From Alphaproteobacteria bacterium (lineage in GTDB: Bacteria > Pseudomonadota > Alphaproteobacteria > Rhodobacterales > Rhodobacteraceae): 43,680 bases of DNA. A program made the position numbers and the translations under genes. The stretch is taken from contig RFGB01000095.1 in assembly GCA_003697125.1 (NCBI GenBank), positions 1 through 43,680 on the forward strand, in the 5' to 3' direction. Shown here one piece after another: positions 12,225-43,626 of this stretch. The notes beneath the pieces were generated by a model. That model was not told where the DNA came from and made no database searches. It worked only from the letters and a program-made list of their open reading frames with translations. Positions within the stretch are counted from its first letter, which is position 1. Every line of letters begins with the position of its first letter.

Positions 12225-12321
12225 GCGAGAGGTTGCGCGGGCGGACGCCTCGCCAACCCGGTCAGGTCCGGAAGGAAGCAGCCGTAACGAGTCCCGTCCG
12301 GGTCGTGTCAGCCTCTCACCC
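12225..12321 (+). ncRNA. ffs: Signal recognition particle RNA, small bacterial (4.5S) type
   Basis: The RNA carries the invariant SRP domain IV core, with GGTCAGGTCCGGAAGGAAGC and GCAGCCGTAACGAG around 12259-12290. This forms the asymmetric internal loop that Ffh binds and the GGAA tetraloop. The ends close through GAGAGG (12227-12232) pairing with CCTCTC (12312-12317), and CCCCTTTT follows as a terminator tail. At about 95 nt it is the small type without an Alu domain. It lies directly upstream of dnaX, a common gene order in Rhodobacterales. Confidence 0.95.
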
Positions 12322-41042: not shown

Positions 41043-41729
41043 ATGGCCGCATTGCGCAAGATCCTGCTGGTCGATGACGATGCCGAGCTGCGCGAGGCGC
41101 TGGCCGATCAGCTGGTGCTGACCGATGATTTCGACGTCTTCGAGGCGGGCACCGCCGCCGAGGCGCTTGAGAAGGCGAAGGTGGAGCCGCACGATCTGGT
41201 CATCCTCGATGTCGGCCTGCCCGACATGGACGGCCGCGAGCTGTGCCGGATCATGCGCAAGCAGGGCGTCCGCTGCCCGGTGATCATGCTGACCGGCCAC
41301 GCATCGGACGCGGACACGATCCTGGGCCTCGAATCGGGGGCGAACGACTATGTCGCCAAGCCGTTCCGGTTCCCGGTACTGCTGGCGCGGATCCGTGCCC
41401 AGCTGCGCCAGCACGAGCAGAGCGAGGACGCGGTCTTCACCATAGGCCCCTACACCTTCCGTCCGGCCATGAAGCTGCTGATCGACGAGAAGGAGCGCAA
41501 GATCCGGCTGACCGAGAAGGAGACCAACATCCTGAAGTTCCTCTACCGCGCCGGCGACCGGGTGGTGGGGCGCGACGTGCTGCTGCACGAGGTCTGGGGC
41601 TACAATGCCGGCGTGACCACCCACACGCTGGAGACGCATATCTACCGCCTGCGGCAGAAGATCGAGCCCGACCCCTCCAACGCCCGGATCCTGGTCACCG
41701 AACCGGGGGGATACCGGCTGATTCCCTGA
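41043..41729 (+). CDS. OmpR/PhoB-family response regulator, CenR-like
   Basis: This two-component transcription factor has 228 residues. The receiver domain (about 5-118) has the acidic pocket DDD (11-13), phospho-acceptor Asp56 ([13 protein letters not shown]), and Thr/Lys positions in MLTGHAS and YVAKPF. A winged-helix domain (about 130-228) includes [21 protein letters not shown] and the recognition segment [16 protein letters not shown]. The link sequence [22 protein letters not shown] strongly resembles CenR, an essential envelope regulator of alphaproteobacteria. No kinase gene is adjacent, as is usual for that system. The ATG follows GAGGGAG. Confidence 0.88.
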
Positions 41730-41789
41730 AATCTGTGATCAACTTGTCACGGGTTCGGCGGATTCTTGCCGATCGCGGCGGCGGAAACC

Positions 41790-41818
41790 TTGCTTTTTGG
41801 GCGATTCGCGCCGATCTT
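41790..41818 (+). promoter_or_regulatory. Predicted promoter of the candidate small RNA
   Basis: TTGCTT (41790-41795), a 17-nt spacer and GATCTT (41813-41818) predict a start near 41825, before the first hairpin. The -10 is a weak match. Confidence 0.4.
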
Positions 41819-41824
41819 CCGGCT

Positions 41825-41944
41825 ACGGACGACTTCCCCAGGTTCGATCCGTGGGGCTGGTTCCCCTACCCCCTCTTTCACGGGAACCGGCCAGCCCTCG
41901 CAGAAGGGTAGGCCCGGCGGTCCCCAGCCGCCGGGCTTCTTCTT
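41825..41944 (+). ncRNA. Candidate small RNA with C-rich loop and intrinsic terminator
   Basis: The 269-nt gap between the response regulator and xth holds three successive hairpins. The first is CCCCA/TGGGG (41836-41856). The second is an 11-bp stem, GGCTGGTTCCC (41855-41865) with GGGAACCGGCC (41882-41892). The third is a 9-bp terminator stem, GCCCGGCGG/CCGCCGGGC (41912-41936), followed by TTCTTCTT. The 16-nt loop of the second hairpin includes ACCCCCTCTTT, the kind of pyrimidine-rich loop that alphaproteobacterial sRNAs use against ribosome sites. It could also be a processed 3' UTR of the regulator mRNA. No reading frame of note lies within it. Confidence 0.5.
41912..41944 (+). terminator. 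Intrinsic terminator before xth
   Basis: A 9-bp perfect GC stem (41912-41920 with 41928-41936, loop TCCCCAG) is followed by TTCTTCTTG. It stands 183 nt after the response-regulator stop and 55 nt before xth, so it ends either the candidate sRNA or a long 3' UTR. Confidence 0.65.
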
Positions 41945-41998: not shown

Positions 41999-42796
41999 AT
42001 GACCCTGACCGTCTGCAGCTGGAACATCAATTCGCTTCGCCTGCGCGAGGGGCTGGTGCGCCGGCTGCTGGAGCGTGAGCGCCCCGACATCCTGTGCCTT
42101 CAGGAACTGAAGGGCCGTGCCGAGCGCCTGCCGCTCGGCGCCTTCGCCGATCTGGGCTATCGCTGGGTCGTGGCGCGCACCCAGAAGGGCTATAACGGTG
42201 TGGCGATCATCTCCCGGATACCGGTCGAGGATGCCGGGCACCACGATTTCTGCGCGCTGGGCGATGCGCGCCATGTCGCCGCCCGCCTGCCCGGCGGCAT
42301 CGTGATCGAGAATTTCTATGTCCCCGCGGGGGGCGACATTCCCGACCCGGAGGCGAACCCGAAATTCGACCACAAGCTGCGCTTCCTGCGCGAGATGGCC
42401 GCGCGCTGCGCCGCGGCCCCGCCCCGGGCGACGATCCTGGCGGGCGATCTGAACATCGCCCCGCGCGAGGATGACGTCTGGTCGCACCGCCAGCTGCTCG
42501 ACGTGGTGTCGCACACCCCGGTCGAGGTCGCGCATCTCGACGCGGTGGCACGGGCAGGCGGCTGGGCCGACGTGATCCGGACGCTTCAGCCGGAAGGCCG
42601 CCTCTATTCCTGGTGGTCCTACCGCGCGCGCGACTGGGACGCATCGGATCGCGGCCGGCGGCTCGACCATGTCTGGGCCAGCCCCGACCTGATCGGCCGC
42701 GCGCGCGGCTGGCGGATCCTGCGCGAGGCGCGCGGCTGGGAACAGCCTTCCGACCATGCGCCGGTGCTGGCCAGCTTCGATCTCGACCCGGCCTGA
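41999..42796 (+). CDS. xth: Exodeoxyribonuclease III
   Basis: This is an AP endonuclease and 3'-repair exonuclease of base-excision repair. The 265-residue protein shows the full exonuclease/endonuclease/phosphatase set: Asn9 and Asn11 (WNINSLR), Glu36 (CLQELK), Tyr in NFYVPAGG, the GDLNIAP motif, RLDHVWAS and the catalytic SDHAPV near the end. All catalytic residues are intact. It is preceded by a terminator and no strong ribosome site (CCCGACAGGCCCGGACCG). It converges on lolA with 7 nt between stops. Confidence 0.94.
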   Translation: MTLTVCSWNINSLRLREGLVRRLLERERPDILCLQELKGRAERLPLGAFADLGYRWVVARTQKGYNGVAIISRIPVEDAGHHDFCALGDARHVAARLPGGIVIENFYVPAGGDIPDPEANPKFDHKLRFLREMAARCAAAPPRATILAGDLNIAPREDDVWSHRQLLDVVSHTPVEVAHLDAVARAGGWADVIRTLQPEGRLYSWWSYRARDWDASDRGRRLDHVWASPDLIGRARGWRILREARGWEQPSDHAPVLASFDLDPA

Positions 42797-43550: not shown

Positions 43551-43626
43551 GGCCCCGTAGCTCAGGGGATAGAGCGGCCGCCTCCTAAGCGGCAGGTCGA
43601 TGGTTCGAATCCATCCGGGGCCGCCA
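43551..43626 (+). tRNA. tRNA-Arg (anticodon CCT)
   Basis: The 76-nt sequence folds as a full cloverleaf. Acceptor stem GGCCCCG (43551-43557) pairs with CGGGGCC (43616-43622). The D arm is GCTC/GAGC, and the anticodon stem GCCGC/GCGGC encloses the loop CTCCTAA, with anticodon CCT. The T arm is GATGG/CCATC with TTCGAAT. The CCA end is encoded at 43624-43626. It decodes the codon AGG. Confidence 0.97.

Follow-up and report, generated by a model that had tools for sequence, protein, structure and literature searches.

A Structured Small RNA Candidate, Distinct From SorX, Directly Downstream of cenR in a Genus of the Rhodobacteraceae

Results

A Conserved, Structured RNA in the cenR-xth Intergenic Region

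Agreement of independently predicted folds, compensatory base changes and a conservation confined to the RNA itself make it very likely, on the strength of one species pair, that a selected, structured small RNA is read from the + strand behind a gene resembling cenR, an essential regulator gene of the cell envelope. The window, i.e., the whole stretch of DNA that was analyzed, comprises 43,680 nucleotides from an alphaproteobacterium of the family Rhodobacteraceae. In the genomes searched, this RNA has so far been seen only in the genus of the window, and it is a candidate for an apparently undescribed RNA family, of an ordinary kind and in an interesting place. The gap of 269 nt behind a CenR-like regulator, in which a first-pass annotation had placed a candidate small RNA, was borne out: it extends from the cenR-like stop codon at 41729 to the xth ATG at 41999. 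The regulator gene itself belongs with cenR, since its R. sphaeroides orthologue (in locus L049) is RSP_0847 (cenR; PMC9275681). The features of the region are given below; G001 (contig RFIR01000204.1, MAG Alphaproteobacteria bacterium isolate J081) is the only other species of the genus examined.

41043..41729, + strand: cenR-like OmpR-family response regulator gene, the upstream neighbor; 181 of the 198 genomes of the family encode a full-length orthologue
about 41823-41825 (predicted 5' end) to about 41942-41944 (predicted 3' end), + strand: small RNA of about 120 nt, from the fold, the identity with G001 and the pair changes
41823..41854, + strand: H1, three short stacked helices with a CCCC loop, from the predicted fold and the comparison with G001
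41855..41892, + strand: H2, predicted 11-bp stem with a pyrimidine-rich 16-nt loop, CUACCCCCUCUUUCAC
41868..41875, + strand: H2 loop core ACCCCCUC, a putative seed, invariant although the surrounding stem changed
41894..41909, + strand: H3, small 5-bp hairpin, the same in G001 with one G-U to A-U change
41910..41938, + strand: terminator-like G+C-rich hairpin, 12 bp, loop CCCCA; two double changes and one single change at its base
41937..41944, + strand: weak, interrupted U-tract TTCTTCTT, from the sequence; its first two T can pair with the stem
41999..42796, + strand: xth-like exonuclease III gene, the downstream neighbor; a similar ORF lies 3' of cenR in most relatives

The minimum free energy of the RNA is -65.6 kcal/mol, which corresponds to a z-score of -4.8 on the + strand, a value reached by none of 300 dinucleotide shuffles; the opposite strand yielded a z-score of only -0.3. 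These values support the structured + strand RNA that had been proposed. Its middle hairpin, described beforehand as an 11-bp stem presenting a 16-nt loop, was recovered in the predicted fold as H2. Of the three hairpins in series and the intrinsic terminator annotated earlier, the hairpin series stood, now with four members including the terminator-like one; the terminator itself fared less well, its U-tract being weak. Neither a generic terminator scan nor a generic sigma-70 promoter scan gave a match in the cenR-xth gap region. With so poor a U-tract, the RNA shows no clear Hfq-type 3' tail.

Searching 31 genomes at the DNA level returned one real match to the RNA, located in the same cenR-xth gap of G001. 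When folded independently, the G001 element formed the same four hairpins, with z-scores of -4.1 on the + and -1.2 on the - strand. With stems matched by order, all 41 base pairs proved standard in both species: 27 were unchanged, five carried single and nine carried double changes, and none was broken. The compensatory changes that the first-pass annotation had suggested looking for in relatives are thus present, in a covariation that rests on one comparison of one species pair. Because an opposite-strand reading of the stems would break 12 of 82 pairs, we set the strand of the RNA as +. Six double and two single changes fall on the 11 pairs of the H2 stem, and its loop still has ACCCCCUC; the 28-nt H1 core, ACGGACGACTTCCCCAGGTTCGATCCGT, shows no change at all, and the UCCCCA loop of the terminator hairpin is identical in the two species.

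The RNA is 86.5% identical to its G001 counterpart, similar to the coding DNA of cenR (85.3%). The upstream flank, between cenR and H1, is 54% identical, which is the level of shuffled DNA, and the 71% identity of the downstream flank, between the hairpin and xth, lies inside the shuffled range. Segment lengths (upstream flank, RNA, downstream flank) are kept, with 93/120/56 nt in the window and 94/118/54 nt in G001. Indels of 1 and 2 nt between the two RNAs break the reading frame, which argues that the RNA is non-coding. One copy was found in each of the two genomes. The RNA combines a conserved secondary structure, an invariant unpaired segment and non-coding character, the general hallmarks of a base-pairing sRNA.

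Search for Known RNA Families and Homologues

An Rfam search of the RNA matched no family above its cut-off, in line with the earlier view that no known family could be recognized in it. The only above-cut-off Rfam matches in the window are the bacterial small SRP RNA (12226-12321) and a tRNA-Arg (cct) (43551-43626). BjrC80 (RF02354), which resembles the window RNA in its hairpin series, C-rich loops and CCCCA terminator loop, was rejected at 25.1 bits (E 0.0045) versus a gathering cut-off of 80 bits, and its model gave nothing firm across 190 class genomes. Matches to P5, anti-hemB and other Rfam families were all far under their cut-offs.

A covariance model made from both sequences of the RNA yielded low scores only in 147 genomes, with alignments mostly on G+C-rich terminators. 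Since UCCCCA-type terminator loops are also present in unrelated low-scoring matches from the class, this loop may be generic. The 24-nt H1 core, searched with up to three mismatches in 394 family genomes, was found only in the two species, apart from two single matches with three mismatches each. A scan of genome contigs turned up the contig of G001 (MAG J081) together with a single match in Arthrobacter, which we took as chance. A tRNA-fragment origin of H1, prompted by GGTTCGATCC, was dismissed, no tRNA being called at H1 or at the chance matches, and a GGA-rich, CsrA-sponge-like RNA on the opposite strand was ruled out by the fold and the pair counts. CcsR or cuckoo RNAs possess C- and U-rich CCUCCUCCC loops that are thought to act on purine-rich sites. 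The window RNA shares with them a C- and U-rich loop; unlike them, it lacks CCUCCUCCC and an Rfam match, and is present in a single copy rather than in a tandem array.

SorX at the Same Position in Relatives

The stress sRNA SorX of R. sphaeroides derives from the cenR (RSP_0847) 3' UTR: the RSP_0847 transcript yields a 116-nt precursor, which is trimmed to the 75-nt RNA (PMC6238624, PMC9438474). SorX inhibits translation of potA (PMC9438474). The cenR 3' site of most relatives is occupied by an RNA different from that of the window, with the core CCTCCCTGTTGGAC. StsR was first suspected for this CCUCCC-containing sRNA, but Rfam identified it as SorX (RF02784), with E values down to 1e-20. The SorX model scored above cut-off in 156 of 198 family genomes. 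Among 48 relatives from other genera than that of the window, 38 carry the SorX core downstream of cenR, a fraction that is no family-wide estimate, these relatives having been chosen by CenR closeness, one per genus; in a further relative (L014), the core is degenerate. Loci without a SorX core behind cenR are L008, L022, L034, L037, L040, L043, L045, L050, and L055. In several genera (L012, L015, L028, L032), two SorX-like RNAs stand in tandem behind cenR. In genome G064, the SorX match is at 2,598,225, and a gene resembling SorY is located at 1,632,683; since these adjoin the published positions 2,598,224 and 1,632,642, G064 is very probably R. sphaeroides 2.4.1.

The window RNA, like SorX, lies directly downstream of cenR on the same strand. 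As judged by the covariance model, it is nevertheless not a SorX member: the SorX model (gathering cut-off 46.6 bits) found no match in the window, nor at the window contig up to E = 10, and the SorX core CCUCCCUGUUGGAC was absent 3' of cenR in both the window genome (G000) and G001. The two RNAs are alike in their cenR 3' position and strand, in having an unpaired segment rich in pyrimidines, and in their terminator-like 3' hairpin; the window RNA differs in its length (about 120 versus 75 nt), its four hairpins and its weak U-tract. Moreover, its seed-like ACCCCCUC is presented in a closed loop, whereas CCUCCCUGUUGGAC of SorX is part of a linker. An unrooted xth tree placed the genus of the window on a long branch, and of the deep lineages adjoining it some have SorX and others do not; because of these mixed neighbors, the tree does not tell apart a replacement of SorX from its never having been present at this locus.

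A further SorX-like sRNA with CUUCCUCCCUGUCGAACUGGCCGCGC scored below the SorX cut-off in L063 (G000 C155:3438-3507), L072 (G001 C408:7663-7736), and L161 (G047). In G000 and G001, its neighbors are an ATPase-like gene on one side and a gene resembling ialB on the other. Its exact core was present in 2 of 149 family genomes searched, a set that did not include G001.

A Candidate RpoH-Type Promoter

SorY of R. sphaeroides arises by direct transcription and is grouped with RpoHI/RpoHII control (PMC8307010). We built a position weight matrix on 18 promoters of SorY-like genes, none of them from the genus of the window (consensus CTTGAT-N16-18-CTAAAT). The best site of this matrix in the gap consists of the following elements.

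41789..41794, + strand: candidate -35 element of an RpoH-type promoter, CTTGCT; matrix score 10.8
41812..41817, + strand: candidate -10 element, CGATCT, weak; N17 after the -35 element, unlike the commonest form CTAAAT at three of six positions

This site, CTTGCT-N17-CGATCT (41789-41817), ranks in the top 0.3% of the 101-nt pieces of the window and ends 5 nt before H1. The G001 equivalent has CTTGAT at -38 (-36 in the window) and ranks in the top 0.7%; the placement of its -10 element is ambiguous, with a spacer of 16 or 18. This suggests, as far as a sequence match can, that the RNA has a stress promoter of its own. The promoter postulated earlier thus persists in part, as an RpoH-type candidate at matching distance in both species, but drew a blank in the generic sigma-70 scan. 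The window RNA and SorY (RF02651) have the candidate RpoH-type form CTTGMT-N17-C....T in common. SorY contains CCUCCCUGUUGGACUU, unlike the window RNA, which showed neither a match to the SorY model nor the core CCUCCCUGUUGGACU, and a separate SorY orthologue is located elsewhere in the window genome. That orthologue (L070; G000 C266:1458-1514) and the one of G001 (L064) have the RpoH-type promoter CTTGAT-N17-CTAT.T; the core CCUCCCUGUUGGACU is common to SorX and SorY.

Discussion

Our preferred reading, to which we give a probability of about 0.5, is that of an independently transcribed, stress-induced sRNA of about 120 nt whose C-rich loop blocks ribosome-binding sites. Its own RpoH-type promoter at 41789-41817, responding to heat or oxidative stress, would drive the RNA on the + strand, and transcription would end at the G+C-rich hairpin. 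The exposed C-rich loop (ACCCCCUC in H2, perhaps also CUUCCCC in H1) would then pair with purine-rich ribosome-binding sites of mRNAs encoded in trans and lower their translation, similar to the action of SorX on potA. Judged from its sequence, pairing of the H2 loop with such sites is plausible. The target prediction that had been recommended for this loop brought no conserved target to light when exact-complement sites were considered in both genomes: GAGGGGGT-N0-15-ATG sites were compared at 38 and 52 loci (nearly all such sites of the two genomes), and only three genes were shared, with matches that look gene-internal. One of the three is nuoG-like, and here, too, the match looks internal rather than at the start site. 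Autoregulation of cenR by the H2 loop was rejected, since pairing as strong as that with the cenR start was found in 8% of the ATG contexts of the window and 29% of those in G001. A link to envelope control, as the first-pass annotation had imagined, was based on position only and is not supported.

That annotation had left a choice between an independent sRNA and a 3'-UTR-derived RNA. SorX now provides a concrete precedent for the latter, in which the tail of the cenR mRNA would be freed by RNase E or another nuclease and would be a counterpart of SorX in function, linked to the expression of cenR. The window RNA is found exactly at the position of SorX, which is itself processed from the RSP_0847 transcript, and the generic scan recognized no terminator-like hairpin between the cenR stop codon and H1. 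We regard this origin as possible, if somewhat doubtful, since the 93-94 nt from cenR to H1 are without conserved sequence and, in both species, a promoter-like element is suitably spaced. It is this weak RpoH-type promoter candidate, at matching distance in the two species, that leads us to favor independent, stress-induced transcription. Unlikely, in our view, is an element that acts in cis only, be it a conserved xth leader or, for the cenR transcript, an attenuator or a structured 3' end. The RNA does lie just 56 nt (54 in G001) upstream of xth in the same orientation, and its weak U-tract would make read-through possible. However, the two species are no more alike in the 54-56 nt from the hairpin to xth than the shuffled range allows, the H2 loop showed no notable pairing with the xth start region, and an invariant loop 8-mer together with an invariant 28-nt H1 is more than a terminator requires.

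A diverged SorX orthologue would account for the shared locus and orientation, the C-rich unpaired segment and the terminator-like 3' hairpin, yet a model that scores above its cut-off in 156 of 198 family genomes is silent at the window contig up to E = 10; the lack of CCUCCCUGUUGGAC, the greater length and the two additional hairpins also make this origin very improbable. Hardly credible is the notion of chance hairpins in a G+C-rich spacer or of a dispersed palindromic repeat: G+C-rich DNA folds readily, and other 120-nt pieces of the window have even lower energies, but the shuffle z-scores, the strand asymmetry, the nine double compensations with no pair broken, and the single copy per genome all speak against it.

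With the preferred reading of an independently transcribed sRNA, we tentatively consider, as a rather more doubtful proposition, that a genus-specific RNA, unrelated in sequence to SorX and with its own stress promoter, took over or independently filled the post-transcriptional niche at the cenR 3' end, so that the locus rather than the RNA would be conserved. The window RNA adds a candidate for an undescribed RNA family to a bacterial family with well-studied stress sRNAs. If the proposition is true, the cenR 3' end would be a spot where different bacteria put unrelated small RNAs, and would offer a tractable case of sRNA origin and exchange beside an essential regulator. It would then raise the question of what selection keeps: the position, through joint expression with cenR, or the sequence of the RNA.
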